Of a stretch of DNA of 33,716 bases, positions 6,327 to 27,027 are shown in pieces. Both the position numbers and the translations under genes were made by a program. The notes beneath the pieces are model-generated. The model searched no databases. It saw only the letters and a program-made list of their open reading frames with translations, and was not told where the DNA came from. Position 1 is the stretch's first letter; each line of letters opens with the position of its first letter. The stretch is from a virus. The stretch is from the IMG/VR virus record IMGVR_UViG_3300042691_036898, positions 1-33,716 of that record; one strand, written 5' to 3'.

Positions 6327-8384
6327 ATGGCTGAACCACTACAAGTTACCGAACTTGACTTTGATCAAATCAAACAAAATCTAAAGACCTTCTTAAAAAG
6401 TCAGTCTGAATTTACCGACTATGATTTTGAGGGTTCTGGTCTAAGTGTCTTGTTGGATATTTTGGCATATAACACACATTATAATGCTTACTATCTAAAC
6501 ATGGTTGCTAACGAAGCATTCATGGACACCGCTTTATTACGTGATTCGGTTATATCACACGCTAAAGTCTTAGGGTATGTTCCTTATTCTAGAAAAGCTC
6601 CACGTGCAACAATTAATTTCACTGTTAATACGGCCACAAACGTCGCAAGCACACTAACTGTACCAAAAGGTTTTTCTTTTTTATCGAATGAAATTGATGG
6701 CGTCAGTTACAACTTTGTGACTTTAGAAGAGGTAAGAGTAACTAAATCGAACACAGACTTTTCATTTTTAAATTTACCAATATATGAGGGTCAGTTAGTA
6801 ACATACAATTTTACTCACGACCAGACAACAAATCCAAAACAAATATTTTCACTTCCGGATACAAATGTTGACACATCGACTCTGTTTGTTTCCGTTCGCA
6901 ATTCAATTTCAAATACAGATTCGGAAATTTATACCTTAGCTGAAGATGCCTCGGTTACTACGACAAACTCCAACGTTTTCTATCTACAAGAAAATAGAGG
7001 TGAAAGATATGTAATTTATTTTGGCGATAATGTAATTGGCAAAAAACTGCCTAATGGTGCAGTGGTTAGTGTCACGTATTTGATTACAAATGGCACAGCA
7101 GCAAATAAAGCAAATAACTTTGTCGCCACAGGAGTTCTTGCAGACTCTTTGGGTAATGCACAAACAGATTATATAATTGACCCTGTGAGTGAAGCCTCTG
7201 GTGGTGCTGAAAGAGAATCTGTGGATAATATCAAATTTTCCGCACCATTACAATTTACTACACAAAACCGTTTGGTAACATTTTCTGATTATGAAACATA
7301 CATTCAAAAAAGTTACCCATCTTTAGACTCAGTTTCCGTTTGGGGTGGTGAAGATGAAACACCACCAAAGTTTGGTGTAGTTTATGTTGCGTTAAAACCA
7401 AAAATTAATTATTTCATTTCAGAGGCGGAAAAACAACGCATTGTAGATGATATTATTAAACCAAAAGCAATCGTTGCTATTCAGGCAGTGCTGCGTGATC
7501 CAGAGTACCTATATTTGTTGATTTCACCTACAGTAACTTATAACCCAATCAAAACTATTTTTACTGAAGAACAGTTAAAAACGGCAATAAGAACGGCGAT
7601 TTTAAACTACAAAACTACCAATCTTGATAAGTTTAATTCTCAATTTATTATTTCAAAAGTTCAAGATGCAATTGACTCTGTTGACACAAATGCTATCATT
7701 GGTTCGGGTGTGTCTGTTCGTTTGCAAAAAAGATTTTCACCATCTCTAAACTCTTCTACACCTTACACGATTAACTTTAATACTCAACTGCGTAGAGGTA
7801 CAATTGGTAACAAGTTGTCTTCAACAACATTTACTGTAGCAGATTCACAAGGCATTGATCGTGAAGTTCAGTTTGACGAAATACCACAATCGTTTTCTGG
7901 TATCTCTTCTATTCAAATAACAAATCCTGGTGCCGGGTATTCTTCTCAGCCGATAATTACAATTGAGGGTGACGGCTTTGGTGCTAATGCTTCAGCAACT
8001 ATTGTAAATGGCCAAGTTCAGAGCATTGAGATGATTAATCGTGGGATTGACTACACACGTGCTACTGTTAAAATTACTGGTGGTGGAGGTTCTGGAGCCA
8101 CGGCCGTTGCTGTTATTGATGGTCGCATTGGCACAATTCGTACCGTTTATTATGACTCCTTTGCACAAAGACAAGTTGTTGATGATAATGCTGGAGAAAT
8201 TGATTATGATTCAGGTACTGTTAAGATATCTAATTTACTCATTAAAAACGTTCAGTCGGTTGATGGTGATGTTCGAATTTCAATTGAAGCGGAAAAAGGC
8301 ATTATAAGTACAGTGAAAAACACCATTATTACAATAGATCAAGAAGACCCAATATCAATTAGTACAACATTAGAAACTGTATAA
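6327..8384 (+). CDS. 6: Baseplate wedge protein gp6 (J-like)
   Basis: The 685-residue product corresponds to T4 gp6 (660), the intertwined wedge dimer that forms the inner ring of the baseplate and drives its expansion at infection. The start has DFDQIKQNLKTFLKSQSEF, then DILAYNTHYNAYYLNMVANE and RDSVISHAKVLGYVPYSRKAP, which is highly typical. Residues about 235-300 hold a baseplate J-like segment (GGAERESVDNIKFSAPLQF). In the C-terminal domain, residues about 529-604 carry a GxGY-type repeat (NPGAGYSSQPIITIEGDGFG) that looks inserted. The surrounding text, with FAQRQVVDDNAGEIDYDSGTV after it, is the normal gp6 ending. The last base of the stop codon is the first base of the next ATG (TAATG), so the genes are coupled. 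Confidence 0.95.
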   Translation: MAEPLQVTELDFDQIKQNLKTFLKSQSEFTDYDFEGSGLSVLLDILAYNTHYNAYYLNMVANEAFMDTALLRDSVISHAKVLGYVPYSRKAPRATINFTVNTATNVASTLTVPKGFSFLSNEIDGVSYNFVTLEEVRVTKSNTDFSFLNLPIYEGQLVTYNFTHDQTTNPKQIFSLPDTNVDTSTLFVSVRNSISNTDSEIYTLAEDASVTTTNSNVFYLQENRGERYVIYFGDNVIGKKLPNGAVVSVTYLITNGTAANKANNFVATGVLADSLGNAQTDYIIDPVSEASGGAERESVDNIKFSAPLQFTTQNRLVTFSDYETYIQKSYPSLDSVSVWGGEDETPPKFGVVYVALKPKINYFISEAEKQRIVDDIIKPKAIVAIQAVLRDPEYLYLLISPTVTYNPIKTIFTEEQLKTAIRTAILNYKTTNLDKFNSQFIISKVQDAIDSVDTNAIIGSGVSVRLQKRFSPSLNSSTPYTINFNTQLRRGTIGNKLSSTTFTVADSQGIDREVQFDEIPQSFSGISSIQITNPGAGYSSQPIITIEGDGFGANASATIVNGQVQSIEMINRGIDYTRATVKITGGGGSGATAVAVIDGRIGTIRTVYYDSFAQRQVVDDNAGEIDYDSGTVKISNLLIKNVQSVDGDVRISIEAEKGIISTVKNTIITIDQEDPISISTTLETV
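7911..8139 (+). repeat. GxGY-type repeat domain inserted in gp6
   Basis: Two copies of a short unit are visible: NPGAGYSSQPIITIEGDGFG with ASATIVNGQVQSIEMI, then NRGIDYTRATVKITGGGGSG with ATAVAVIDGRIGTI. Each unit reads Gly-x-Gly/Asp-Tyr, a strand with I-x-I-x-G, a GxG turn, an Ala-rich strand and a Gly-linked final strand. Related units occur in three other baseplate proteins of this window. Confidence 0.75.
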
Positions 8385-11300
8385 TGTCAGTAGATTTAAA
8401 AACATCAATACTTGTAAATCGTCAAGTACCCGAATTCGTTCGTGACGAATACCCAAAGTTTGTCGCCTTTTTAGAAGCGTATTATGAGTTTCTTGAGACT
8501 CAGGCAAATACTGCCATCTCTTCAAACAATTTAGTTACAACTGCAAAAACTTTAAGAAACATTAGAGATGTTGATGATTCTTTGGAGAGATTTGAAAAGA
8601 ATTTTTATAACACCTACGCAACTCTAGTTCCGCTTGAAGTACAGTCAAATAAGGCTCTTCTTTTTAAGCATCTATCTACTCTATACAGAGCAAAAGGTTC
8701 CGAAGGTTCTTTTAAATTATTGTTTCAACTTATTTTTGGTGAAGACATTGATATTATTTTACCTAAAAATAATGTTCTTCGTTCTTCTGCAAGTAAATGG
8801 CAAGTAGACAATATAATAAGAATCAATCCAGATATCTTTACTCGTTATGTTGGTAACGGCACAAACAAAACTTTTTATTTGGCTCAACGAGCAACACAAG
8901 GTGATGTCAATGTTTATGTTAATGATGTGCTTAAAGTTTTTGATCAAGATTACTTCATTAATAAAGAGTATCGTCAATTAAATTTTGTCACCGCACCCGC
9001 AAATGGTGACATAGTAACTGTAAATTATGGTAATTTTGAAATTAATTTACTAAACAACCGTAAAATTACTGGTGTATCATCCAATGCTTCGGCAATTATT
9101 GAAACTTCAAACAAAAGAATTATTTCTGATACACTTAATCTTGGCTTACCTATTGAACTTTCAATCGATCTCAAAACACTCGATGGCGATTTTTTAAACG
9201 GCGAAGAGATTTCAATACCAATTAATGATGAAGTTAATAATATCTCAATAGATGTTCGTGCTTCTACGTTTTCAATTGTTCGCAAGTTTAATGTTATAAA
9301 CTCAGGTAATAATTATAGTGTTGGCGACATTGTTACGGTAAGTGGTGGTAACGCTTCAACAAATGCTTTTGGTACGGTTGAAAGAGTATTTACTGGCCAA
9401 GTTGATTCTGTAAATATTACACATGGCGGTGCTGTATTTACAATTTCTTCACCCATTTCTGTATCCGGAAATGACGCACTCACAACAATGATTGCTGTTG
9501 TTGATGGAATTGATACTTCGGGAGCAAATGCTGCTAATTCATTTAAAGTATCACCTGACGCTATTGCTAATTTAAATATACAATCAGCAATTACGAATTC
9601 TAATTTTGGTTCTGCTTTTTCTAAACCACTCATTAACGCAGCAAATTCAATTTCTGATGCATTAAATTATATTTCATTTCAAGTTGGACCTATCAGTAAT
9701 GTTAAAGTTCTAACCTCTACAATACCACTCACCGAAAAAGATGTAACGATTCTAGATGCTGCTGGTGCTGAATATGGTTCAAACACTGGCAGTTTTGGGT
9801 ATCGTTACTCTAAAAGTTTAAAGTCTGTTGGTAGATACAAAATTAATGATGGTGGTATAAACTATCAGATTGGTGATGAGATTATCTTCGGTGCAAATCC
9901 TCCTGGAACATATGGTCAAATGGCAGCGGCCACTGTTGGCAAAATTGCAGCCAATGGTTATATTTTAAGAATTGATTCTGCAAACAGCCGCATTCGTGGA
10001 ACCGGAACAGTTTTAATTACACAGTTGAATGAAATTGTTGGCACAGGAACATTCTTCACACAAGATTTAAAAATTGGTGACAAAGTAGACATCAACAATG
10101 AATCCAGAACAGTATCATCAATTACTAGCGATTCTGTTGTTGTTGTAAATACCAATTTTGTTTATCCGACAGCAAATAAAAAAATTGGCGTATATGATCG
10201 TTGGCCATTAGGTGGATATGGATATACACAAGGAAAATTTCCAAATCTTTCTGTAAGTTCAACTACGGGTTCTGGTGCAAATGTACAAATTGATTCACTA
10301 ATTGGTGATGGTGAATCATTAGTTCCAACTGGTTTTGGTTCAAACGGACAAATCATTTCAATTGCGGTTATTGATCCGGGTTCAGGTTATGAGTATAGCC
10401 CAATTGTAAACATCTCTGGTGGAGATGGTGCAGCAACGGCAAATGCAGAAATTGAACGTTCATTTACTTCAGCGCCAGGCCGCTGGACTACTTCAGATTC
10501 CATTATTTCTTCGTTTGAAAGAAAGTTACAAGGCGAAGATTATTATATTGATTACTCATATGTTGTTTCATCACGAATTGAATTTAGCAAATACAAATCT
10601 CTGCTAAAACAACTGTTGCATCCAGTTGGATTAATTAATTACGCTTACTATAACAGAGAAAATATTGTTGAACTTACGGATGTTTCTATACAAGGTTCTA
10701 CTTCGAACACAATTTCTGGCACGGTAAACGTTGGTAACGGTAGAATCGTTGTAACAGGAACTAATACCAAATATAACATTGCAAACACAAAAGGTATTCT
10801 GTCATTAGGATCATTAATCGCTGTAGGCAGTGAAGTTAGAAAAATCAACACAATCGTCAGTAATACGGCATTAATTACAACATCAAACATTGCTAACCTT
10901 TTAATTGCAAATGCTGGCTCCGGTTATTCAAACGGTTATCTAATTTTTGCAAATGGTGGTGGCCAGATTACAAGTCTCACAGTTACCGCAAAGGGCTCTG
11001 GCTACGAAAATGGTGTGATGACGTTCTCCAGCACGGATGAAACAATACCTGCTGTTGCAAATGTTGAAGTACATGCATCAAATGGTGCAATTAGAACCGT
11101 CACTTTGATCAGTGGTGGTCTTTATGCTAATGCGCCATTTGCCATACCAGATAGTAATCCTCATCGTGTTGTTCTGTCTAATAGCATTAGTGTCATTTCT
11201 GCTGGTGAAGGTTATTCAAATGGATTCTTGATATTCTCGGGTGGAACACCGTCTCCTACAGGTAGAGATGCAAACGTTGCAGTTGAGGTATATCCAAGTA

Positions 11301-12964
11301 ACGGTTCAATTCGTTCATTTACAGTTAATGATCCAGGGTTATATCAATCAAATCCAACCGCAAGACCTAATTCAAATGCGAACGTTGTCATTTCATCTGT
11401 GGTAATTGCAACTGGCGTTACACAAGTAACTGCAAATGCTGGAAGGGCAGTCAATAGTTTCATAGTTTTCTCTAATAGCGTGGGTGATACTTATACACCA
11501 GCAAATGCACGTGTGTATGTAAACACAGCAGGTTTTGTTGAAAATGTTCAAGTCATTTCAAATGGCTCTTATGCACTTGCTGCTAACATAACTGCAAATG
11601 TTGCCGGATTGAGATATGTCGAAAACAATCAAGTCTTTGATGCAACAACAAATAGTCAGTCGAATGTCACATTCACTATTGGAACATCAAATAAAGGTAA
11701 TGGTTTCTCAAACACTGTGCTAACGCTTTCTGGTGGAACACCAGGAAGAAATGCAAGAGTTCGCATTGAAACTTTCCCACAAAATTCGGCACAAGTTGTT
11801 TCCATCCTTGCAAATGCCCTGTCTTATGGTGTAAACAGTTTTGTAGAATTCTCTGGTGGTGGAGAGATTATACCAGCAAATGCAAGAGTTTATGTCACAT
11901 CTACTGGTCAGGTTAATGGTGTAGTAGTTTTTGATAGTGGATTATACAGAGGCACTCCTACTGCCAATGTCAACGTTGGCAATGTGTCTCTCACTTTGTC
12001 AATGTTGCCACTTGATGGACAAGTTCGTAAGATTACAATCGAAGATTCTGGTTTGTATCAATCAACACCAACTGGCTCTTTGAATACCGTACCTAATTCT
12101 GTAATATCGATAACGTCAAACACTGTTGCAAATACTTTTGTTGGTAGACATATTGCAAATGGTTACTTAATTTTTGAAGGTGGTACACCAGTAAGAACAG
12201 CAAATGCGACATATCAAGTATATCCATCAAATGGTGTTATCAATATGCAGTCGATTGTCATTACTGATGCGGGACTTTATCGTTCACCACCAACTGCTGT
12301 TCGACCTAATATTACACCAGTTTCAATTACAGAAGTTCGCCCACTAATTGGCGGTTCTGGTTATGTCAACGGTAATTTGGTATTTTCAACGACACAAGCA
12401 ACTTCAAATATTGTTGCAAACTGCACAGTTGAAGTCAATGGTGCATTTGGTGCAATTATAAAAACTACCGTGGTCAGTGCTGGTTTATATGCAAACAGTT
12501 CTGATATTATTATTGTTGGCGTTCTTAATCCGGCCACTGCCACATTGCAATCACCAAGCATAGCGGCAAATTTCTTGATACAATCTAGCGCAAATAGAAC
12601 CAACGTTGCTAATCTGATTGTTTCTACAACGGCAAACACAACGCAGACTGCTTTCTTTGGAATTACTGCAAACAGTAACTCACGTACCAATGCTGTGTTT
12701 ACAGTTACACCTTTTGCGAATACACAAACCGTTGCTACAATTTCGGTAGGGTTTACTGGTAGAAACACAGCAGCAAATGCCGCTATTGAAGTTTATCCAG
12801 GAAACGGTGCTATTCGTAAAGTTACACTAAATAGCAATGGCGAATACTATTATACACCAGACGTAAGACCAAACAGTGCTGGTGCGAATGCAGTGTTTAC
12901 CTTCAATCCCGTGTCATGGTACCAGACAGCAAATGCACAAACAGCAGTTATAATTAAGCAATAA
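8384..12964 (+). CDS. Giant baseplate/virion protein in the gp7 position
   Basis: The 1526-residue protein lies between gp6 and gp8, where T4 has gp7 (1032 residues), the wedge protein linking hub and periphery. The first 125 residues (VPEFVRDEYPKFVAFLEAYY, then LSTLYRAKGSEGSFKLLFQL) are typical of the gp7-position structural protein of marine T4-like phages. Residues about 130-760 are mixed and end with a conserved-looking segment (TTSDSIISSFERKLQGEDYY, then LLKQLLHPVGLINYAYYN). In relatives I remember, the protein ends about here. From about residue 840 to the end is a long array of degenerate Asn/Gly/Ser-rich repeats. I use no gene symbol because sequence orthology to T4 gp7 is not evident. 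It is coupled to gp6 by TAATG. Confidence 0.8.
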   Translation: MSVDLKTSILVNRQVPEFVRDEYPKFVAFLEAYYEFLETQANTAISSNNLVTTAKTLRNIRDVDDSLERFEKNFYNTYATLVPLEVQSNKALLFKHLSTLYRAKGSEGSFKLLFQLIFGEDIDIILPKNNVLRSSASKWQVDNIIRINPDIFTRYVGNGTNKTFYLAQRATQGDVNVYVNDVLKVFDQDYFINKEYRQLNFVTAPANGDIVTVNYGNFEINLLNNRKITGVSSNASAIIETSNKRIISDTLNLGLPIELSIDLKTLDGDFLNGEEISIPINDEVNNISIDVRASTFSIVRKFNVINSGNNYSVGDIVTVSGGNASTNAFGTVERVFTGQVDSVNITHGGAVFTISSPISVSGNDALTTMIAVVDGIDTSGANAANSFKVSPDAIANLNIQSAITNSNFGSAFSKPLINAANSISDALNYISFQVGPISNVKVLTSTIPLTEKDVTILDAAGAEYGSNTGSFGYRYSKSLKSVGRYKINDGGINYQIGDEIIFGANPPGTYGQMAAATVGKIAANGYILRIDSANSRIRGTGTVLITQLNEIVGTGTFFTQDLKIGDKVDINNESRTVSSITSDSVVVVNTNFVYPTANKKIGVYDRWPLGGYGYTQGKFPNLSVSSTTGSGANVQIDSLIGDGESLVPTGFGSNGQIISIAVIDPGSGYEYSPIVNISGGDGAATANAEIERSFTSAPGRWTTSDSIISSFERKLQGEDYYIDYSYVVSSRIEFSKYKSLLKQLLHPVGLINYAYYNRENIVELTDVSIQGSTSNTISGTVNVGNGRIVVTGTNTKYNIANTKGILSLGSLIAVGSEVRKINTIVSNTALITTSNIANLLIANAGSGYSNGYLIFANGGGQITSLTVTAKGSGYENGVMTFSSTDETIPAVANVEVHASNGAIRTVTLISGGLYANAPFAIPDSNPHRVVLSNSISVISAGEGYSNGFLIFSGGTPSPTGRDANVAVEVYPSNGSIRSFTVNDPGLYQSNPTARPNSNANVVISSVVIATGVTQVTANAGRAVNSFIVFSNSVGDTYTPANARVYVNTAGFVENVQVISNGSYALAANITANVAGLRYVENNQVFDATTNSQSNVTFTIGTSNKGNGFSNTVLTLSGGTPGRNARVRIETFPQNSAQVVSILANALSYGVNSFVEFSGGGEIIPANARVYVTSTGQVNGVVVFDSGLYRGTPTANVNVGNVSLTLSMLPLDGQVRKITIEDSGLYQSTPTGSLNTVPNSVISITSNTVANTFVGRHIANGYLIFEGGTPVRTANATYQVYPSNGVINMQSIVITDAGLYRSPPTAVRPNITPVSITEVRPLIGGSGYVNGNLVFSTTQATSNIVANCTVEVNGAFGAIIKTTVVSAGLYANSSDIIIVGVLNPATATLQSPSIAANFLIQSSANRTNVANLIVSTTANTTQTAFFGITANSNSRTNAVFTVTPFANTQTVATISVGFTGRNTAANAAIEVYPGNGAIRKVTLNSNGEYYYTPDVRPNSAGANAVFTFNPVSWYQTANAQTAVIIKQ
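10901..12961 (+). repeat. Degenerate GxGY/YPSNG protein repeat array in the gp7-position gene
   Basis: About 690 residues made of roughly 6-8 diverged units of 90-110 residues. Recurring motifs are GSGYSNGYLIF or variants near residues 845, 942, 1105 and 1322; GGTP near 955, 1118 and 1267; NA-x-V/A-x-V-x-YPSNGxI near 890, 965, 1276 and 1466; and GLYxxxPTA near 985, 1186, 1223, 1298 and 1367. The units are coding and too diverged for DNA-level repeats. Confidence 0.75.
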
Positions 12965-12973
12965 ATATATCTT

Positions 12974-14545
12974 ATGACTTCAGTTACAAGTAAAAAAATA
13001 CCATATATCTCTGCGATTCAGTTCAAAGAATCTTTCTACGAGCCTTCACCTGAAGTTGGTTATGTTTTTATTGGCAATCACACACCTTATGCCAATGAAA
13101 GCAGTCCAAATTCCGTTGTAGACTCTGTAAGTGATGAAAAACTTGCATGGGAACAAATGATCGCAGCCAAAAAGATTACGGGTAACGATGTCGAATTAGT
13201 TATACCTAAAATCTCTTGGACTGCAAATACAAAGTACAAACAGTATGATGATTTGATTGAATTGGAAGATTTGCTGACGGGTAACAACTCGTTGAACGTT
13301 AAGCCAATGTATGTCTACACATCCCAGCGTAACGTTTATAAATGTCTGTCGAACAATTACTCTTCAAATTCTACAGTAGAACCCACTGGAGATTACACAT
13401 TCTCTAACGGTAACATTGCTACTTCTGATGGTTACATTTGGAAGTACATGTTTAATGTAAAACCGTCAAATAAGTTTTTAGCCGATGATTGGATTCCAAT
13501 TCCAACTAGTACGAGACAGACAGATTATGGTGTTAATAATATCGGTGTTGTTCCTGGTGAATTAACAACAATCGTTGTAGAGAATTCTGGCGCAGGTTTT
13601 TATGAGAATAATGTATCTGTTATTCCTATTTTCTCAACCGGTTGCACAAGACTAAGTTTAGCAAACACAACAAACGTAGCAGCAAACATGTCTATCTCTG
13701 GTACAGGTATTGCGCCAGGCACCTTTATTAGTCGTGTTGATGTACCAAACAATAATATTTTCTTGTCAACCGTAACAACTGGTGCGGGTGGTGGTGCAAC
13801 AACTGCAAATCAGATTTCTCTGAGAACACGTGTTTTTATTGACGGTGATGGCACTGGTGCTGTGGCTTCAGCCACAATCAATGCTACTGGTTTTTTAACA
13901 AATGTTACTGTAACAACCATTGGAACACAATACAATAGAGCCAATGCCTTCATTTTCGGCACAGGCTCAAATGCGTCTGTTCGTGTAATTCGTGACATGA
14001 AATACGGTCATGCGTTCAATCCAGCAAGAGAATTGGGTGCAAATAGCGTGATGATTGTGTCACGAATTGGTGAAATTGACTCAACAGAAAACGGTAAAAT
14101 ACCAGCAAATACCACTTTTAGACAATATGGTATCTTTGTGAACCCTCATAAATACAGCAATGGAAATGTAATTTCTTCTACAAGTGCTAATGCTGTCATC
14201 TCACAAGCAACTGTTTTGACTTTGACTACGGGTTCTTTATATACAGTGGGTGAGTTTGCGTATCAAGGATTACCAAATGACACTACCGCAGCAAACACTT
14301 TTGCTCATGGTGTAGTTCTAGATCAAACGACAAATCAAGTTAGACTTACAAATGTCAGAGGTACTTTTAGAACAGGTCTTCCATTAAGGGGTGCAAGTTC
14401 TGGTGTAGATGATCGATTGATTGTAACTATCCAAAATCCAGAATTTGAACCCTATTCGGGTGATATTTTGTATACTGAAAACGTAACAAAGATTACAAGA
14501 AGTGAAGGTCAGGCTGAGAATATTCAACTTATTGTTAGATTTTAA
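12974..14545 (+). CDS. 8: Baseplate wedge protein gp8
   Basis: The 523-residue protein is gp8, which in T4 (334 residues) is a wedge dimer linking gp7, gp6 and gp10. Family-like text is clear in the N-terminal 190 residues: a start with an FKESFYEPSPEVGYVFIGN-type segment, KLAWEQMIAAKKITGNDVELVI, YVYTSQRNVYKCLSNN, and TSDGYIWKYMFNVKPSNKFL. The C-terminal 180 residues (HAFNPARELGANSVMI, then FRQYGIFVNPHKY and TKITRSEGQAENIQLIVRF) are also typical. In between, residues about 194-339 hold GxGY-like repeats with a Thr/Ala/Asn-rich extra loop, which explains most of the added length. The start follows the gp7-position stop by 9 bases. Confidence 0.92.
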   Translation: MTSVTSKKIPYISAIQFKESFYEPSPEVGYVFIGNHTPYANESSPNSVVDSVSDEKLAWEQMIAAKKITGNDVELVIPKISWTANTKYKQYDDLIELEDLLTGNNSLNVKPMYVYTSQRNVYKCLSNNYSSNSTVEPTGDYTFSNGNIATSDGYIWKYMFNVKPSNKFLADDWIPIPTSTRQTDYGVNNIGVVPGELTTIVVENSGAGFYENNVSVIPIFSTGCTRLSLANTTNVAANMSISGTGIAPGTFISRVDVPNNNIFLSTVTTGAGGGATTANQISLRTRVFIDGDGTGAVASATINATGFLTNVTVTTIGTQYNRANAFIFGTGSNASVRVIRDMKYGHAFNPARELGANSVMIVSRIGEIDSTENGKIPANTTFRQYGIFVNPHKYSNGNVISSTSANAVISQATVLTLTTGSLYTVGEFAYQGLPNDTTAANTFAHGVVLDQTTNQVRLTNVRGTFRTGLPLRGASSGVDDRLIVTIQNPEFEPYSGDILYTENVTKITRSEGQAENIQLIVRF

Positions 14546-14556
14546 AAGGTTAATAA

Positions 14557-17500
14557 ATGGCGCTTAATACAAATTTTAATGTTGATCCTTACTACGACGA
14601 TTTCGATGAGAACAAAAATTATCATCGTCTTTTGTACAAGCCAGGATTTGCGGTACAATCACGTGAGTTGACACAACTTCAAACAACCTTACAAGATCAA
14701 ATCAAAAAGTTTGGTGATCATATGTTCAGAACCGGTTCTGTTGTAACCGGAGGTTCTATTCTTATTCAAAACACGGCATATCTGAACATCTCTTCAAGTT
14801 ATTCTGGTCAAGATATTAATTATATTAATTTTGACAAGCAAACAATTATTAACACGGCGAATACGAAAAGAGCCTATGTTCTAAAATCATATGCAGCGGA
14901 TGCAATAAATGATGAACCAATCACTTTACTCATCAATCAAAATTACGGTGAACCTTTTGTTGAAAATGAAACCTTCTACACATTAAATACTGACCCAACG
15001 GTCATAACTTACTATGCAAATACCGCATCGGCAAATGCTACTGGTAACAATCAATCTTTTTCTGTAGGTGAAGGTGTATTTTACTATGATGGATTTTTTG
15101 TAAAAACTCAACCCCAAAGTGTTGCAGTAGACAAATACAATCGAAAAGGTAATGCCATCATTGGCTTTACTATTTCTGAAGATATTATTGACTATACTGA
15201 AGATACCACTTTACTTGATCCTGCACAGGGCTCATCTAACTTCCAAGCACCCGGAGCAGATCGTTACAAAGTCTTGATGACTTTGGATACTAGACCTATC
15301 GGTAGTACAGATTTAACTAGATTCATTGAACTTGGAACTATAAGTGAGGGTGTACCTCAAAAGATTGTGGAGACGCCAATTTATGGTCCTATTGCTGATG
15401 AATTTGCTCGTAGAACTAATGATGAATCGGGTGATTATATCATCAAAAATTTTGAAATTACAGTTACCGATAGCGCAGCAAATAATGCATTTATTAACGT
15501 TAGTTTGGGTTCAGGTAAAGCGTATATTAAGGGATATGAATTTGAAACTGGTTTACCAACCATAATTACCATACCGAAACCAAGAACGACACAAGCAATT
15601 ACAAATCGTAGAATTGGTGTTGACTATGGTTATTTTATCTATGCTAATGGCATGTATGGTAATTTTGCTACCAACAATTTTGGTTTAGCAGAATTATCGC
15701 TGTTAAATGCAAATGCTGCAAATGCTTATTTAACTACTGGTCCCACTTTAAGTGGTAACAATGATGTCTATTCAAATACTGTTATTGGAACTACAAGAGT
15801 AAAACTATCTGTTTTTTCAGGACTAAATTCAGATACTCCTAATGATTCTAATACCTACATTTATAAACTTTATGTAACTGATGTTAATACGAGATCAATT
15901 GCTGCAAACAATGGTTATGGTATTAATGCTGTTGGTGGCAATACAACTACAATTACTTTACCACCAGGATTTGCTGCAAACAATGATGTTTATAAAGGAT
16001 TGAATTTAAGAGTCGTTGGTGGTCAAAATGTTTTTGGAGACACGCAAAGACGTATCATTACAAATTATCAAGGTGCCACTAGAAATGCTACAATTTCGCC
16101 GGCATTTGCTGAGACCACTAATGTTGGAACTTTTTCCAATTATAGATTCTTTATAGAAACAGATACCTCAGCAATGGAATCTTTGGTAGTAAGAGGTACT
16201 GGCTCAAGTCTTAATACAGTGATCGCCTCCGCCAATGTTCATCCACTTACTAAAATTCTAGAACTTGGCAAACCTCCGCAAGAACTTTCTTTACTTGGAG
16301 ATTTTGCATATCAACCAGCATATATTCAAGGCTCAGGAAGTGAACCGCTTTTAGTCAGAATTGGTGAGCCAAATATTGCTGATAATACCATTAGAGATTT
16401 TTCCTATGGTTATAAGAGACTGTATCAAACGGTAACCTTTACGGCTGATGTGTCACAAACACTCTCTGTTGGTACAGGCGAAACAATCATTGATGCGGAT
16501 ACGAACGAAGAAAAACTTAAATATTATCAAGTAATTGTAACTGATCCTAAAACCAGCTTTTATGCGAAAGGTCAAACTGTACCCTCACAAGCATTTACTG
16601 TAAATCCTATTGCTCGTACCATTACTGTTACAAATGGTAAAGACATGGTAGCAAACATTTATGCGGTTATAAATGCGTCAGAGCCAACATCAAAAACAAA
16701 AAGATTTATTAAAGCAAACACACAATTCGTGGAGCCTGTAACTGCTAATTCAATTTTTGGTGCCGGTGGTGGTTCTGGTAATACTTCTGTTTATCTTGCC
16801 GCCACTGATGGTCAAGTGCTTATTGCCGAATCTTTCATTCGAAGAACACCCGGTTCTACTCAACACTTGTATGTTACTGATGTACACTCCATCAATGCGA
16901 TTTTTGATTTTAACGGTACAGCAACTACCACAGCGAACTTCAATTCAATTAGAGGTTCTGCGTCAGCAAATGTGACAGGCCGTTACAATTTTAATACAGG
17001 CCAAAGAGATTCCTATTATGATTGGGGTTCGATTAGTTTAAAACCTGGTCAAACCGCACCACGTGGTCCTTTATTGGTACTCTTTAATAGATTTGTTTCA
17101 ACAGGTTCGGGATACTTTGATGTCAGTTCGTACACTAGATTGGGATCACAGCAAAATGGTGGCTCAGGTGTAGATTTTGGCGACATTTCAGTATTTGAAA
17201 CACAAGATGGATCAAAAATTGGATTGGGTGATTACTTAGATTTTAGACCAGCTCGTCGTGATGCAACTACTTTAGCACTTGCGAATACCTTCGTTCTAAA
17301 TGTAGATGAGGCAGTTTTGGGACCTCAAATCGCTGAGCCAGGTCAGGAAATTGTTGCGGACTATGAATATTATTTACCAAGAATTGATCGTGTCGTATTG
17401 AATAAAAGTAGAGATGTTGCTTTTGAAGTTATTCAAGGAACTTCTGCGGTTGGACCTGTTCTGCCTGGTGAACCTGACAATTCAATGACTTTGTACACAC

Positions 17501-20500
17501 TGACATATCCTCCTTATCTAACTTATCCAAGTGCAACCCGTATTGCTAGAAATAATAATCGTCGTTACACGATGAAAGATATCGGAACTCTTGATAAAAG
17601 AATTCGTAGCTTAGAAATTTATACTTCACTATCAATTGCCGAACTTGCTCTTTTGAATAAAAATGATAAACAACTTGTAGATACCAGCACTGGAATAAAC
17701 AGACCAAAAAATGGAATTTTTGTTGATTCTTTTAGTGACAAGAGAAGTGCTGACGTTATAGCACCAGGTTTTGATGCTGCTATTGACGTTATAACAAATA
17801 TCTGCCGTGGTTCTTATAATATTTCTTCAACAAAAATATTTTCTAACACTTCCCCCGCAAATCAAAATGTTGATATTAACGGTCCTTTATTGATGCTTGC
17901 TTCTTCAAACACAACTTTTGTGTTTCAAAATAGAGCATCAAAAACAATGAACATTAATCCATTTAACGTTGTTAATTATTTTGGTACAATTAGACTCGAT
18001 CCAAACTCTGATGTTTGGAAATCAACCACACGTGTAGAAGCACAAAATATTGACTTGTCGGGTGGTGCCGAAGCAAGAGATGCTTGGTCTTCAATTCAAA
18101 GCACAAACTGGCAAAGTTGGAATTCTTCATGGACAAGTGTTATAGACAAAACGTTGGAGGTTCAAAGAAATCCTTTTGGTACGCAAGGGCTTGGGACTTC
18201 ATGGTCAATGGTTGGTAGTGGAAGGTCATTTTCAATGGTACAGACATCAAATCCAATATATAAAGACGCATATGCAGTTAGAGCCGTTGGTGGAGCGATT
18301 GGTGCTGGCAATGCATATCTTGCTGCTGGTGGATATGCTCAAGGAGGATATGCTGCTACTCAATATGCTGACATCGAAGTTACTACCCAAAGATTAGTAG
18401 AAGCAACAGATACACTGTCCGCTTCACGTACAGGTATTCTTTCAAAAATTATTCCAGAAGAATTAACTAAGTCCTTTGGTGATAGACTCATTGACTTTAG
18501 TGTTGTGAGTTTTATGAGAGAAAAAAATATTCTTGTGCTTGCTGAGAAATTCAAACCATTTACAAGACTGTTTTCTTATTTTGATAACGTTCAGGTAACT
18601 GACAAAGTGTCGAAGATAAATCGTTTTGTGATGGACAATAATAATTTGGAATACAGAACCGATCTATCAAATGCGGAAGAAGTTTCAATTTATGCCGCCG
18701 CACAAATTTCTGGTGAAGTGGCAATTGACACTACTAAAAAAATTGGTGTTGGTAAAGTCGTGATGACTTCAAACAACAATGCGTTTATTGTTGGTATACA
18801 AGCCGATCCCACTTATGGTTCTTGGTCGCAATATACCACAGACGGCATTTATATTGTTGGTGATGAAACAGGTAAATCTTACAGAACAACAAAATGGTAT
18901 GTGACAACTGGTAGAGTTGAATCTGCAACTTCAAGTTCAATCACATTACCTCTGAATGCTGGTGGAGCCTCTGAAACCGGCGATTACGTTGGTCAAAGAC
19001 TTTACATACTCAGAGGAACTGGACAGGGACAATCATATACAATTTCAGGTTATAACCCCTCTACAAGAGTCGTTACAATTAATGGTGTCTTCATAACAAC
19101 TCCAGACGCAACTTCGATATTTTCAATTGGTGTTTTGGAAACAACTGCTGAAGGTGCTGTTGCTGGTATCTTCTTCTTACCTGCTGATGTTTTCCGTACA
19201 GGAGACAGAGTTTTCCGTTTGATTGACGATGAGTTTAACAACACAGAAAATTCAAGAACAAATGGTGATGCTAAATTCTTTGCACAGGGTGCCATTGAAA
19301 CAAAACAAGAAACTTCGGTGAGTGTGTTTACACCTTCTGTGCAAAGAAGTTCTGTTTCAGAAAGTTTTTCCGCATCACTCAGTTCAATTAAAACGGTTCG
19401 TGACACTACAGTTATGAAAAACGTTTGCGTTGGATATGCTGACCCGTTGGCACAAACATTCCTGATCAATCCAAACCAATATGGTCAAGGTATTGTTGTC
19501 GATTCAATTCGCATTTGCTTTAAAACAAAAGACCCAACCGAACCAGTGACTTGTCAAATTCGTCCCGTTGTAAATGGATTCCCATCTTCGGCTGTTATAT
19601 ACCCGTTTGCCGAGAAAACTATAACACCAGATAAGGTTAATTTAACTACGATACCTGATTTAACTGATCCGACAAAATACACCGAATTTAAGTTTGATGT
19701 GCCGGTTCTACTGTTACCTGGTGAACACTCATTTGTTCTACAGACTAACAGTAATGGTTATGAAGCGTTTATTGCTGAAATTGGTGCATTCGATTTGAGA
19801 ACTAGTGTGAAGATTTCTGAACAGCCTTACACAGGTTCTTTGTTCTTATCGCAAAACGGCTCTACGTGGGAGCCAGAACAGTTAAGCGATTTGATGTTTA
19901 GTATTCATAAACGAGTGTTTACGACTAATCTCGGTTATGCTTATTTTGAAGCGGATATGTCAGAATACAATGCGAATACCGTATTTGATTTAATGCAATT
20001 AATGTCAACTGATGCAGTTATTGCAAACACCTCCGCTCAATATGAGTTTTCTTCTGAATTAGATTCGGGTGAAGCACACTCACTGTTGCCTATTATACCG
20101 AATATTGATTATTCATGTAATGATGGTTATGGTAGAAGAATATTGAATAAAACAACTGGAAACACTACTTTCCAAGTAAGAGTAACCTTGCAAAGTACCA
20201 ATCCGGATGTTTCACCAATGCTTGATATTAATCGTTTAAACTTGTTAACCATTGAAAACAGGATTAATAATCTACCTCTGCAAAACACAGGATTTGTTAT
20301 TACTAATAGGGGTTCCGGTTATCCTGGAAATACAACAGTTTCAATTACATATCCTAGTGGCACTCTTGGTCAAGGAGATGGAAGTGCTAATGCATACGCC
20401 GAAGTTGTTGGTGGTCAAGTTGTTGCTATTCATTTGACTAGTCCAGGAGCAGGTTATATTACATCACCTAACGTAACAATTTCAGGTTCGTCCGGTTCCG

Positions 20501-20964
20501 GAGCAACTGCTATTTACAATGGTGAAGATAGAGCGGTTGGTGGTAATGCAAATATACGTTACATTACCAAAAAAATTAGATTAGCACCTGGCTTTGAGGC
20601 TGGAGATTTGAGAGTTTATATGGATGCATACCGACCACCAGGTTCAGGTATACTTGTTTATTACAAACTTCTATCTCACTCTGATCCAGCCAGCATTGAT
20701 GATAACAACTGGACTTTGATGACTGAAGATGCAACAACAGCTTCATTTGTTTCTAAAAATGGAGAATTCGCAGAATTAGTTTTTGCTCCAGGTCCTTATG
20801 GTTCAGGAATTGCTGATAATAGAGTTACCTATAGAAAAGGTGACACTACATATCCAAACTTTTATCTTTTCTGTGTTAAAGTTGTGATGTATGGAACAAG
20901 CACAGTTGATGTGCCAATATTTGCACAACTAAGAGTAATTGCTCTTCCTTCTCTTGTGGATTAA
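14557..20964 (+). CDS. Giant virion structural protein (DUF4815-type)
   Basis: The 2135-residue protein opens with NTNFNVDPYYDDFDENKNYH, LLYKPGFAVQSRELTQLQTT and KFGDHMFRTGSVVTGG. This start is very characteristic of the large virion protein after gp8 in cyanophage-like T4 relatives, a family I believe is called DUF4815. It takes the place of T4 gp9/gp10 on the map and is probably a baseplate-peripheral or fibre-connecting protein. A Ser/Trp-rich loop (WSSIQSTNWQSWNSSW) and a Gly/Ala/Tyr-rich loop (GAGNAYLAAGGYAQGGY) occur near residues 1175-1265. Residues about 1912-1989 are a GxGY repeat pair placed just before a conserved ending (YITKKIRLAPGFEAGDLRVY). The start has AAAAGGT 7 bases upstream. 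Confidence 0.85.
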   Translation: MALNTNFNVDPYYDDFDENKNYHRLLYKPGFAVQSRELTQLQTTLQDQIKKFGDHMFRTGSVVTGGSILIQNTAYLNISSSYSGQDINYINFDKQTIINTANTKRAYVLKSYAADAINDEPITLLINQNYGEPFVENETFYTLNTDPTVITYYANTASANATGNNQSFSVGEGVFYYDGFFVKTQPQSVAVDKYNRKGNAIIGFTISEDIIDYTEDTTLLDPAQGSSNFQAPGADRYKVLMTLDTRPIGSTDLTRFIELGTISEGVPQKIVETPIYGPIADEFARRTNDESGDYIIKNFEITVTDSAANNAFINVSLGSGKAYIKGYEFETGLPTIITIPKPRTTQAITNRRIGVDYGYFIYANGMYGNFATNNFGLAELSLLNANAANAYLTTGPTLSGNNDVYSNTVIGTTRVKLSVFSGLNSDTPNDSNTYIYKLYVTDVNTRSIAANNGYGINAVGGNTTTITLPPGFAANNDVYKGLNLRVVGGQNVFGDTQRRIITNYQGATRNATISPAFAETTNVGTFSNYRFFIETDTSAMESLVVRGTGSSLNTVIASANVHPLTKILELGKPPQELSLLGDFAYQPAYIQGSGSEPLLVRIGEPNIADNTIRDFSYGYKRLYQTVTFTADVSQTLSVGTGETIIDADTNEEKLKYYQVIVTDPKTSFYAKGQTVPSQAFTVNPIARTITVTNGKDMVANIYAVINASEPTSKTKRFIKANTQFVEPVTANSIFGAGGGSGNTSVYLAATDGQVLIAESFIRRTPGSTQHLYVTDVHSINAIFDFNGTATTTANFNSIRGSASANVTGRYNFNTGQRDSYYDWGSISLKPGQTAPRGPLLVLFNRFVSTGSGYFDVSSYTRLGSQQNGGSGVDFGDISVFETQDGSKIGLGDYLDFRPARRDATTLALANTFVLNVDEAVLGPQIAEPGQEIVADYEYYLPRIDRVVLNKSRDVAFEVIQGTSAVGPVLPGEPDNSMTLYTLTYPPYLTYPSATRIARNNNRRYTMKDIGTLDKRIRSLEIYTSLSIAELALLNKNDKQLVDTSTGINRPKNGIFVDSFSDKRSADVIAPGFDAAIDVITNICRGSYNISSTKIFSNTSPANQNVDINGPLLMLASSNTTFVFQNRASKTMNINPFNVVNYFGTIRLDPNSDVWKSTTRVEAQNIDLSGGAEARDAWSSIQSTNWQSWNSSWTSVIDKTLEVQRNPFGTQGLGTSWSMVGSGRSFSMVQTSNPIYKDAYAVRAVGGAIGAGNAYLAAGGYAQGGYAATQYADIEVTTQRLVEATDTLSASRTGILSKIIPEELTKSFGDRLIDFSVVSFMREKNILVLAEKFKPFTRLFSYFDNVQVTDKVSKINRFVMDNNNLEYRTDLSNAEEVSIYAAAQISGEVAIDTTKKIGVGKVVMTSNNNAFIVGIQADPTYGSWSQYTTDGIYIVGDETGKSYRTTKWYVTTGRVESATSSSITLPLNAGGASETGDYVGQRLYILRGTGQGQSYTISGYNPSTRVVTINGVFITTPDATSIFSIGVLETTAEGAVAGIFFLPADVFRTGDRVFRLIDDEFNNTENSRTNGDAKFFAQGAIETKQETSVSVFTPSVQRSSVSESFSASLSSIKTVRDTTVMKNVCVGYADPLAQTFLINPNQYGQGIVVDSIRICFKTKDPTEPVTCQIRPVVNGFPSSAVIYPFAEKTITPDKVNLTTIPDLTDPTKYTEFKFDVPVLLLPGEHSFVLQTNSNGYEAFIAEIGAFDLRTSVKISEQPYTGSLFLSQNGSTWEPEQLSDLMFSIHKRVFTTNLGYAYFEADMSEYNANTVFDLMQLMSTDAVIANTSAQYEFSSELDSGEAHSLLPIIPNIDYSCNDGYGRRILNKTTGNTTFQVRVTLQSTNPDVSPMLDINRLNLLTIENRINNLPLQNTGFVITNRGSGYPGNTTVSITYPSGTLGQGDGSANAYAEVVGGQVVAIHLTSPGAGYITSPNVTISGSSGSGATAIYNGEDRAVGGNANIRYITKKIRLAPGFEAGDLRVYMDAYRPPGSGILVYYKLLSHSDPASIDDNNWTLMTEDATTASFVSKNGEFAELVFAPGPYGSGIADNRVTYRKGDTTYPNFYLFCVKVVMYGTSTVDVPIFAQLRVIALPSLVD
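20290..20523 (+). repeat. GxGY-type repeat domain inserted near the end of the giant virion protein
   Basis: Two units are seen, NRGSGYPGNTTVSITYPSG then SPGAGYITSPNVTISGSSGS, each followed by an Ala-rich or Gly-linked strand (GGQVVAIHL between them). The layout is the same as the domain in gp6. It separates RLNLLTIENRINNLPLQ from YITKKIRLAPGFEAGDLRVY, segments that I expect to be closer together in relatives. Confidence 0.7.
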
Positions 20965-23205: not shown

Positions 23206-25746
23206 ATGAGTCAGCGTAGACTTCAAATAAATCCTGCTTCGTCAAGAAGAATATCTACAAAATCAATCAGAGTTTTACTCTCTTTGAGTAGACTGTCTGT
23301 GCCAGCGTTTGGTGTGATTAGTGCCAGTTACGTAGTCAGTCGAATATTCACAGAAACAACCACATGGGTAGCACCATCTGGTGTAGCACAAGTTGATTAT
23401 CTTGTTGTTGCTGGTGGAGGTGGTGGAAGTGGAGGTGGTGGGGGTGCTGGTGGTTTTAGAACATCACCTTCTCTTACTGTCACTCCGGGTCAAACTTATA
23501 CAATTAGTGTTGGTGCGGGTGGAACAGGAATGAGTGGTGCTACTCCTGCTTATGCCACCAATGGTTCAAATTCTGGAATTTTTTCTTCTTCACCATTCCC
23601 TGCTGTATGGTCATCAGGTGGTGGTCGTGCTGGTACAAATGGTGAAAGTGCGCCGCAAAGTAATGGCAACTCTGGTGGTAGCGGTGGTGGTGGCGGTACG
23701 GATGGTTCACCGGGCACACCAACAAATCAAAGACTTGGTGGACGAGGTAATCTTGGAGCATATACACCCGTAGAAGGTTTTGGTGGTGCTGCTGGAATGT
23801 TTTTTGATGCGTTTGGTGAAGCTGGTGCTGGTGGTGGCGGTGGTGCAGGTGCAAATGGCATAAGTTCGTTTAATTCACCTCCATTTAGTTTTGGTGGAAA
23901 TGGTGGTATAGGATTATTTTCAACAATTTCCGGTGCAAATGTTGGATATAGTGGCGGCGGCGGCGCCGGACTTTATACTGGTTCCCCTGGCGCACCATCA
24001 CCACTGACAAGAATAAAGGGAGAAGGCGCCTATGTTTTTGGTGGTGCAAACGGAGCAACTGCGGGTCAGACTGCTACAACTGCCATTGCTAATCGTGGCG
24101 GAGGTGGTGGAGGAGGTAGAGGTCTTGCTCCAGGATCAATTGGTGGCACCTCTGGTGGCTCTGGTGTCATCATTCTTCGTTATACTGAAACTACTCCTAC
24201 GGTGAATGGCGTTTATGTTTTTGCCAATACGGGTCAATTAAGAATACCTGATGGCATATCAAGAGCCGACATTATGGTGATTGGTGGTGGAGGTTCTGGT
24301 GCATCTGATGCTGGAGGTGGTGCCGGTGGAATGAGATATTTGACCAGTTATCCAGTAAATGGTAATACGCTTTATACAATTACGGTTGGTGCTGGCGGTG
24401 CAGGAAAAACTGGGCAGGGTACTCCTGGAAATCCAGGCTCAGATTCTTCAATAACGGCTGCACCACCGTTTTCAAATGTTTCAGCAAACGGTGGTGGCGC
24501 AGGTGGCGGCGCTGCGACCGGACTCATTGGTGGCTCTGGTGGCGGTGGCGGCGGACCTAATAATGGAGGAGGCTTATCAATTCCTGCTCAAGGGCGTAAT
24601 GGTGGGACTGGTGGTGGTTCACCCGGTCCTGCTGGTGCCCAACCCGCAGGCGGTGGGGGTGGCGGTGCCGGAGGACTTGGCGGAAATGCTTCACCCGGCG
24701 GCGGCACAGGTGGGTTGGGACTATTCTCTTCAATCACGGGCGCTAATGTTGGTTATGCCGGTGGTGGTGGAGGCGGTGCGCCACTTTTTGGTGGGGGTGG
24801 TTCAGCACATCCGCAATTTGGTGGAGCGCCTGGCGCTGTTGGTGGCTACGGATTGAATGGTGTAAGTGCTGCTTCGGGTCAGGGTGGCGGTGGCGGTGGC
24901 GCACCGACAAGTGGTGGTGGTCCCACAGGAAGTATACCTGTTACTGCTGGTTCTGGTGGTTCTGGAATAGTTGTCGTTAAACTTGATACATCGAACAATC
25001 AAAACGGATTAGCAACATTTTATAGTACATCAACGTGGACCGTTCCAACTGGTGTAACTTCAATGCAGTACCTTGTCGTTGCTGGTGGCGGTGGAGCAGG
25101 AGGTGCAGGTGGAGGTGTAAACTATTGGGCTGGCGGTGGTGGAGGTGCTGGTGGGTATAGAGTAAGTCCGTCAATACCAGTAAATCCAGGTACAACATAT
25201 ACTGTTGTTGTCGGCGCTGGTGGTGCTGGCATTACAGAATCAAGTCCAGTTGGAGGCAATGGATCAAACTCTGGATTCTATATTGCTGGAAGTCCATCAA
25301 GCAATGTTTGGTCAACTGGTGGTGGTGGGGGTGGCACTGCTGGTGTATTTGGTGCTGCTGGCGGATCAGGCGGAGGAGGAGGAGGCGGTACTGGCGGATT
25401 ACCTCCTTACACTCAAGGTGGTGGTGCTGGTAACCTTGGTGGTCATACACCCTCTGAAGGAAATGCCGGATCAACTGGTGGCGGACAATACGGTGGTGGA
25501 GGTGGTGGCGGTGCCGCTGGCGCTGGTGGTATACCAAGTCGTGAAATGGGAGGCTTAGGTATATTTAACACAATAACTGGTGCAAATAATTACTATGCTT
25601 TTGGTGGAAATAGCGCATTCTCAACAACTCCAACAACACCACCAAGCACAACATCTGGTACAGGCGGTGGTGGTATTGGTAGTTATTGGCCAGGTGTTCG
25701 TGGTGCTGATGGTGGTTCTGGTATCGTTGTTTTTAAATGGACATAA
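23206..25746 (+). CDS. Glycine-rich adhesin/tail fibre A (three Gly-rich modules)
   Basis: The 846-residue protein has a basic N-terminus (RRLQINPASSRRISTKSIRV) unlike those of the other two adhesins. Three modules follow at residues about 48-327, 337-594 and 602-846. Each opens with a strand pair (TTTWVAPSGVAQVDYLVVAG, LRIPDGISRADIMVIGGGG, STWTVPTGVTSMQYLVVAGG), carries V-x-PG-x-x-YT-I/V-x-VGAGG, continues through poly-Gly runs with GxGxFSxIxGANxGYxGGGG, and ends GGSGxxxxK/R strands (SGIVVFKWT). This is a Gly-rich domain family seen in phage fibres, I believe Pfam Gly_rich_2. By analogy with phage S16 gp38, the Gly runs may form polyglycine-II helices that display receptor-binding loops. Glycine is roughly two-fifths of the modules. 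The ribosome site is weak (ATTTGA). Confidence 0.85.
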   Translation: MSQRRLQINPASSRRISTKSIRVLLSLSRLSVPAFGVISASYVVSRIFTETTTWVAPSGVAQVDYLVVAGGGGGSGGGGGAGGFRTSPSLTVTPGQTYTISVGAGGTGMSGATPAYATNGSNSGIFSSSPFPAVWSSGGGRAGTNGESAPQSNGNSGGSGGGGGTDGSPGTPTNQRLGGRGNLGAYTPVEGFGGAAGMFFDAFGEAGAGGGGGAGANGISSFNSPPFSFGGNGGIGLFSTISGANVGYSGGGGAGLYTGSPGAPSPLTRIKGEGAYVFGGANGATAGQTATTAIANRGGGGGGGRGLAPGSIGGTSGGSGVIILRYTETTPTVNGVYVFANTGQLRIPDGISRADIMVIGGGGSGASDAGGGAGGMRYLTSYPVNGNTLYTITVGAGGAGKTGQGTPGNPGSDSSITAAPPFSNVSANGGGAGGGAATGLIGGSGGGGGGPNNGGGLSIPAQGRNGGTGGGSPGPAGAQPAGGGGGGAGGLGGNASPGGGTGGLGLFSSITGANVGYAGGGGGGAPLFGGGGSAHPQFGGAPGAVGGYGLNGVSAASGQGGGGGGAPTSGGGPTGSIPVTAGSGGSGIVVVKLDTSNNQNGLATFYSTSTWTVPTGVTSMQYLVVAGGGGAGGAGGGVNYWAGGGGGAGGYRVSPSIPVNPGTTYTVVVGAGGAGITESSPVGGNGSNSGFYIAGSPSSNVWSTGGGGGGTAGVFGAAGGSGGGGGGGTGGLPPYTQGGGAGNLGGHTPSEGNAGSTGGGQYGGGGGGGAAGAGGIPSREMGGLGIFNTITGANNYYAFGGNSAFSTTPTTPPSTTSGTGGGGIGSYWPGVRGADGGSGIVVFKWT

Positions 25747-26643: not shown

Positions 26644-27027
26644 ATGGCTGCGCCAAACATTGTTAGCGTATCAAATATTTTAGGTAAAAGTAATGTCGCC
26701 AACGTTACAACAGTTTCTTCTGCTGTAATTGTAAACCCTGTCAATTCAAATAAAGTATTTAAAATTAATACCATAATTATTTCAAATATTGACGGCACAA
26801 ATTCTGGTAATGTATCAGTTGATTTGTTTAAATTTGGCGCACAAAACTCAAGCACAGGCACAGGTAATACAACTTACGCTATCGCTAATGTTATTACAGT
26901 GCCAGCAAAGTCTTCATTAGACATTATTTCAAAAACGCTGTATCTGGAAGAGGGTGATCAAATTAGAGTTAGGGGTGATTCAAACAGTCGCTTAAACTTC
27001 ATTTCATCTTTTGAAGAGATTAGTTAA
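26644..27027 (+). CDS. Small beta-rich fibre-associated protein (paralog 3, cassette copy 2)
   Basis: The 127-residue product (NIVSVSNILGKSNVANVTTV, then VIVNPVNSNKVFKINTIIIS, ITVPAKSSLDIISKTLYLEE and GDQIRVRGDSNSRLNFISSF) shares the strand plan of the proteins starting at 22081 and 22857. It has VPA-x-x-S/D-x-x-x-x-x-x-x-L before LEEGDQI, and it ends EEIS like LEIT. A strong ribosome site (GGAGGT, 26634-26639) overlaps the preceding stop codon. Its stop overlaps the adhesin B start codon by one base (TAATG). It is probably a structural partner of adhesin B. Confidence 0.75.
   Translation: MAAPNIVSVSNILGKSNVANVTTVSSAVIVNPVNSNKVFKINTIIISNIDGTNSGNVSVDLFKFGAQNSSTGTGNTTYAIANVITVPAKSSLDIISKTLYLEEGDQIRVRGDSNSRLNFISSFEEIS

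Follow-up and report, generated by a model that had tools for sequence, protein, structure and literature searches.

We found that a GxGY module of two similar units is shared by four proteins of a viral baseplate cluster, and our results support a model in which its copy in the ring protein gp6 is a lineage-specific insert that marks a wider clade of relatives. The window, by which we mean the whole stretch of DNA analyzed here, is a virus contig of 33,716 bases and carries a T4-type baseplate cluster comprising gp25, gp6, a protein at the gp7 position, gp8, and a DUF4815/VrlC protein. The initial annotation had proposed similar GxGY units in the last four of these proteins, and had further proposed that those in gp6 and DUF4815 are inserted between parts that are contiguous in relatives. 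Both proposals are borne out below, whereas the suggestion that the module is peculiar to wedge proteins, where it would form a shared surface, is not.

All four host genes lie on the plus strand. The baseplate wedge and ring protein gp6 (positions 6327..8384, 685 aa) matches phrog_219 (E 1.9e-161) and the Pfam families Gp6-like_1st and Gp6_C-III, and the wedge protein gp8 (12974..14545, 523 aa) matches phrog_438 (E 8.3e-76) and PF09215. In fold searches, the gp6 model aligned with T4 gp6 (3h2t; Z 22.5, rmsd 3.4, 271 aligned) and the gp8 model with T4 gp8 (1n7z; Z 15.3, rmsd 3.0, 251 aligned). The core folds are thus alike, and by family matches and T4 folds these are a true gp6 and gp8. The gp7-position protein (8384..12964, 1526 aa) matches PF23786 at aa 1-41 as well as phrog_26741 and phrog_17744 at its N-terminus; a search with the whole protein returned nothing useful. 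The DUF4815/VrlC baseplate protein (14557..20964, 2135 aa) matches PF16075 (E 3.1e-56) with 191.3 bits against a cut-off of 30. Several of its stretches are homologous to the DUF4815 baseplate protein of Staphylococcus phage phi812 (PDB 9euf; E 7.4e-38), although the latter has 1152 aa and the matched stretches stop at aa 1798 of 2135, before the site of the module in the window. The cultured records best covered by the window gp6 are those of the Pelagibacter phages Mosig and HTVC008M and the Methylophilales phage Melnitz (approximately 40% identity), all labelled Kyanoviridae. In pelagimyophages, VrlC is regarded in one study as an integral component of a baseplate with two layers, where it replaces gp7 (PMC7029224). 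For T4, PMC3004832 describes gp6 dimers as the only continuous ring of the baseplate, with C-terminal halves that pair between wedges, gp8 as the chaperone and partner needed for gp6 folding, and gp8 together with gp7 as the platform under gp6. Elsewhere in the window, three large glycine-rich proteins (23206-25746, 27027-29444, and 29448-31910) contain similar repeated blocks of the type VTSVxYLVVAGGGG, the first two each preceded by small proteins. These are likely fibre or adhesin proteins, and the long reverse-strand ORFs across their genes look like composition artefacts.

The unit comprises 38 residues, occurs mostly in pairs, and has the consensus IssIevtNpGsgYttrptVTItGGdGsGAtAtAvvnGr; the window copies show the GxGY turn, I-x-I-x-G strand, Gly-rich turn, and Ala-rich strand that define it. 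We built a unit profile from the four window units of gp6 and DUF4815, iterated it over relatives of these two proteins only, and searched it against the six-frame ORFs of the window of at least 60 aa, with 1000 shuffles per protein. The top four ORFs by full score were gp6 (107.7 bits), DUF4815 (54.6 bits), the gp7-position protein (27.8 bits), and gp8 (12.4 bits), and the fifth-ranked ORF reached 3.5 bits. All four proteins outscored every shuffle, the highest scores among shuffles above the reporting limit being 11.4 bits for DUF4815, 8.9 for gp8, 8.4 for gp7, and 7.8 for gp6. A profile of the pair found the same four proteins in the window (gp6, 5e-37; DUF4815, 1e-19; gp8, 9e-10; gp7, 1e-8 and 2e-7). 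In profile-profile comparisons, the gp6 pair matched the DUF4815 pair at 99.1% and the gp8 pair at 99.3% over 73 columns, with a module nested in gp8 omitted from the gp8 profile. The gp8 copy is the weakest by unit profile, yet the gp8 family profile phrog_438 matches the gp6 pair at 1e-10. Taken together, the ranking, the pair profile, and the profile-profile matches establish that the units of the four proteins are homologous. The initial annotation had placed them correctly to within about 15 bases and had named the right four proteins, but its inventory missed a second pair in gp7, the split of the gp8 pair, and the composition of the gp7 array as about ten divergent 65-residue pairs.

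The pair in gp6 spans aa 522-601 (7890..8129), with units at aa 526-563 (56.7 bits) and aa 564-600 (57.4 bits) covering bases 7902-8126; by analogy with T4, it lies in the C-terminal half that pairs between wedges. When gp6 is aligned with its counterparts from HTVC008M, Mosig, Melnitz, and S-RSM4, the two strands that flank the pair are directly joined in those four proteins, so that the pair amounts to an insertion of roughly 80 residues. Each of the ten cultured Kyanoviridae gp6 proteins examined lacks the unit at this site, S-SCSM1 having a 4-bit match elsewhere. The pair is present in 94 of 94 distinct gp6 proteins of the window's clade, a sample collected using the window's own gp6 and gp8 as queries, and in 0 of 123 distinct complete gp6 proteins fetched with HTVC008M and S-RSM4 gp6 (top score 6.5 bits), a set from which ORFs shorter than 560 aa were dropped (154 of 160 kept). 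Distinct proteins were counted because in some cases two loci had been cut from the same contig, and the contig counts cover ORFs of at least 600 aa for gp6 and gp7, 480 aa for gp8, and 1700 aa for DUF4815. None of the 80 deposited phage records with a match aligned over 80% of the C-terminal part of gp6 including the insert. In a tree of 106 gp6 proteins built from residues 1-514, and thus excluding the insert, all 33 carriers lie beyond one branch (support 100). A single change suffices to account for presence and absence on this tree of a subset of proteins, the derived side depending on the root; the outgroup T4 falls on the side without the insert.

These results support the pair as a lineage-specific insert marking the window's wider clade, and make gp6 an example of a module entering a core part of a contractile tail in a single change, for which the empty sites of relatives permit comparison. 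The insert is also well conserved, with a mean pairwise identity of 65.5% versus 58.8% and 58.5% for its flanks and a near-invariant N-R-G-x-D-Y-T-R-A motif. A candidate gp6 with insert in Pseudoalteromonas phage XG4 was rejected, since the match sits in the XG4 gp8. Nor do we claim copying from gp8 to gp6: a tree of 92 pairs, again a subset, clusters the copies by host protein, and with few columns and long branches it does not fix where the pair in gp6 came from.

The DUF4815/VrlC pair (aa 1906-1990; 20272..20526) is likewise supported as an insert, here at a site with swappable content. Its units lie at aa 1910-1954 (26.3 bits) and aa 1955-1990 (36.5 bits), or bases 20284-20526. It is present in 32 of 53 distinct relatives; in alignments of relatives without it, including HTVC008M, Mosig, and Melnitz, the sequence is continuous through the site, and in three DUF4815 proteins (L063, L039, and L048) another domain of about 110 aa fills the site instead. 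The VrlC pair has a mean pairwise identity of 52.2%, versus 61.3% and 59.4% for its flanks. With one VrlC pair as query, tblastn returned no phage record at 1e-4, which the low-complexity filter may explain, since a different pair retrieved 15 records at 1e-2 and that of gp6 retrieved 288.

In gp8, the pair (aa 195-342; 13556..13999; best unit stretch 12.4 bits) was identified by the unit and pair profiles and by profile-profile comparison. A small beta-barrel (aa 210-284; 13601..13825), recognized in a fold search of the gp8 model, is nested within its first unit and splits it. The predicted barrel resembles a phage tail tube (9n71; Z 9.9, rmsd 1.9) and the LKA1 tailspike (4ru4; Z 8.9), which identifies it, at the level of the model, as a second and unrelated module like the barrels of phage tail tubes and tailspikes. 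It is missing from the aligned gp8 proteins of HTVC008M, Mosig, Melnitz, S-RSM4, and S-SM2. The GxGY pair itself is found at the matching place in gp8 of HTVC008M, Mosig, S-SM1, S-SM2, and the more distant phage XG4. Judging from this distribution among sequences, the gp8 and gp7 units are older than the gp6 and VrlC inserts, being common to cultured Kyanoviridae and absent in T4. Thus, whether the same units occupy the same places in all T4-like relatives has a divided answer: for gp6 and DUF4815 they do not, while those of gp8 and gp7 are comparably placed across the cultured Kyanoviridae examined but not found in T4.

The gp7-position protein contains a pair at aa 299-375 (9278..9508; pair profile E 1.4e-8) that the initial annotation did not list, one or more units at 10304..10456 (best at aa 657-690, 27.8 bits; pair profile E 2.2e-7), and, directly after a lone unit at aa 839-864, an array of about ten divergent 65-aa pairs (aa 865-1500; 10976..12883) with the consensus ITITNAGSGYSNGVLVFSGGGPTRAANARVEVNPSNGAIRSVTINDNGLYASTPTATPNTSPNSV. 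The pairs of this array, detected with an array profile, follow one another in tandem with no long linkers between them. That profile, built from gp7 proteins only, had the gp6 pair as its next-best protein in the set tried (best stretch 12.6 bits), and profile-profile comparison matched the array to gp6 at 92.9% and to DUF4815 at 95.6%. Protein length tracks the number of array copies, with 0 copies at 801-900 aa and 7-11 copies at 1044-1790 aa, as read from every sixth protein of the set. Among the fetched loci, gp7-position proteins range from about 836 aa without an array to more than 2000 aa, with 0-11 repeats in those shown. The corresponding protein of S-SM1, T4-GC969, has 18 unit stretches and, according to PMC3037559, was detected in purified virions by mass spectrometry. 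In HTVC008M, I899_gp055 (L162 16849-19899) is annotated as 'head closure Hc2' but lies between gp6 and gp8, that is, at the gp7 position; it has 35% identity over 598 aa to the Mosig gp7-position protein and was matched by the real gp14 over short stretches only. This label seems to have travelled with the shared module, which may explain other database labels of this kind.

Structure prediction gives a consistent picture for the two proteins in which the pair was modelled. The gp6 model (66 sequences) has a mean pLDDT of 81.5 and a pTM of 0.48, with means of 74-91 for 10-residue blocks over aa 521-600, and the gp8 model (50 sequences) a mean pLDDT of 78.4 and a pTM of 0.64. In gp6, the predicted strands of the pair are 526-533, 543-548, 551-560, 563-574, 579-584, and 592-597, three per unit; in gp8 they are 195-204, then the nested barrel, and 286-291, 297-302, 308-315, 323-328, and 335-340. 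The strand order is identical, so that a difference in predicted fold, which would have spoken against a common domain, is not seen between these two models. The whole-model fold searches barely probe the pair itself, and the gp6 pair, compared with solved structures both as a single sequence and as a profile, gave chance matches only. Matches to BurrH at E 0.003 were set aside, since BurrH is an unrelated repeat protein and the matches are scattered across numerous weak repeats.

The module is widespread beyond the baseplate wedge. In a profile search of the kind that the initial annotation had suggested, the pair was found at E 0.001 in 15 of 16 whole phage records, T4 being the sole record without it. 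Among the annotated carriers are, in S-RSM4, the neck protein g14, g5 (hub and lysozyme), and a tail fibre frame of 2,924 codons; in S-SM2, gp14; and in Mosig, a tail fibre together with a putative tail-sheath stabiliser. The pair also occurs in several wedge and structural proteins from S-SM1 and S-SM2 and in one hypothetical protein from BUCT-ZZ01. The 31 unit members matched 17 PHROG families, eight of which were matched by all 31. In Pfam, by contrast, these members had no usable match (best E 0.031): no carbohydrate-binding module (CBM) or lectin family was among their matches, and no Ig-like or Big family matched at a usable E, one of the 31 matching IPT/TIG at E 0.032. The inserts had no NCBIfam match, and we found no description of the GxGY module in the open-licence literature. 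Thus, a module that spans 17 PHROG families and sits in four neighbouring baseplate proteins, gp6 included, has no usable counterpart in Pfam or NCBIfam. A scan of bacterial and archaeal genomes yielded seven loci with the unit. Compared with Pfam, six of the bacterial ORFs (L187 left out) comprised four multicopper oxidases, one CrtC/lipocalin-like protein, and one without a match. In L182, L185, L186, and L188, the GxGY units lie within bacterial multicopper oxidases from several phyla. Five of the seven bacterial ORFs have two units and two have four. Because two units are the commonest number and carriers extend beyond the baseplate, the pair is a natural module that is not private to baseplates, and the earlier idea of a feature particular to wedge proteins is not supported in the form proposed.

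What might the module do? The reading we favour, with about even confidence, is that it is a promiscuous, self-folding beta brick whose variable copies decorate the virion and whose fixed copies are structural; exposure, surface binding, and structural contact of the copies are what we infer. Each module would consist of two three-strand units (strand, GxGY turn, strand, Gly-rich GDGxGA turn, Ala-rich strand) and would enter and leave its host domain at one loop. As a brick of virions of Kyanoviridae-type phages that also occurs in secreted bacterial proteins, it would be old in gp8 and at the gp7 position. A pair would have entered a loop of the gp6 C-terminal domain in the ancestor of the uncultured clade and then stayed, another would occupy a VrlC loop where other relatives have either nothing or a different domain, and gp7 would have gained a tail array of diverged pairs with changing copy number. 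We distinguish two classes of copy because the gp6 pair is conserved and universal in the clade, the VrlC pair is less conserved and swappable, and the gp7 array varies. The variable copies, in the gp7 array and VrlC, would most likely decorate the baseplate periphery and, by analogy with the CBM and Ig-like modules of other phages, touch the cell surface weakly at many points, while the fixed copies in gp6 and gp8 would most likely have turned structural, stiffening or touching their neighbours in the ring and wedge. The initial annotation had raised sugar binding. None of 31 pairs, nor the gp7 array, contains a tryptophan, and the units are poor in aromatics, which counts against the usual stacking sugar sites. 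In T4, the ring of gp6 lies high up and on the inside of the dome (PMC3004832), and the gp6 copy may therefore not meet the cell surface. Moreover, since the pair occurs in bacterial multicopper oxidases, host adhesion is not the module's only use.

An alternative is that the modules on gp6, gp7, gp8, and VrlC make contact among themselves and thereby hold adjacent wedge proteins in place. This would suit the chaperone and platform roles of gp8 and gp7 in T4 cited above, the conservation of the gp6 copy above its flanks, and the resemblance of its D-Y-T-R-A to the Y-S-R-A consensus of the second gp8 unit in the clade. Nonetheless, we consider it unlikely, as the module is also carried by neck, hub, and fibre proteins that are far apart and by bacterial oxidases, and HTVC008M and other cultured Kyanoviridae make baseplates without a module in gp6. 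The common Y-x-R-A could also reflect descent or chance, and gp8 of HTVC008M and Mosig has Y-T-F at that point. A more specific version, in which the module is a self-complementary connector, so that the pairs of gp6, gp7, gp8, and VrlC dock and the gp6 insert adds an inter-wedge contact to the sole continuous ring, is in our view quite improbable; if true, a single repeated module would hold the clade's baseplate together.

It is also conceivable, though we rate the chance as low, that the module is a mobile beta domain tolerated in surface loops without any particular function, a role that has been argued for some Ig-like phage domains. Its great promiscuity, the VrlC site that may be empty, pair-filled, or filled by another domain, the varying array length, and its presence in unrelated cellular enzymes are all consistent with such a passenger, but a pair kept in all 94 distinct clade gp6 proteins and conserved at least as well as its flanks is not what neutrality would lead one to expect. 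Finally, that gp7 arrays serve solely as a rigid arm setting the distance of peripheral parts, without binding, would fit tandem pairs whose repeat number sets protein length but leaves the single pairs in gp6, gp8, and VrlC loops unexplained, and is very unlikely.

Several known systems place our favoured reading, that of a promiscuous brick with variable and fixed copies, in context. T4 gp6 and gp8 share the core folds of the window proteins, but the T4 genome has no unit anywhere at E 0.001. Kyanoviridae families (PHROG 438, which is gp8, 2885, 708, 701, 460, and others) carry the unit, in gp8 at the same place as in the window, whereas gp6 of the ten cultured relatives and VrlC of HTVC008M, Mosig, and Melnitz have no pair, unlike the window's clade. 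The CBMs of the 936 lactococcal siphophages and the 'evolved Dit' insertions similarly put a small beta module in or on several structural proteins from neck to baseplate, with variation among relatives. CBMs on the neck, tail tube, and Dit of 936 phages bind host cells (PMC6669499) and a CBM inserted in Dit improves adsorption (PMC10688798). Those modules are recognized CBMs with demonstrated binding, whereas the module described here has no CBM similarity and sits on T4-type wedge proteins. Ig-like domains are likewise promiscuous beta domains found on many phage virion proteins and common in cellular surface proteins. Their promiscuity is similar, but the repeat in the window, with its two three-strand units and GxGY and GDGxGA turns, is not Ig-like in sequence. 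Promiscuous beta modules on phage virions are thus already known as a kind; what is unusual here is that one entered the gp6 ring protein once and then stayed.
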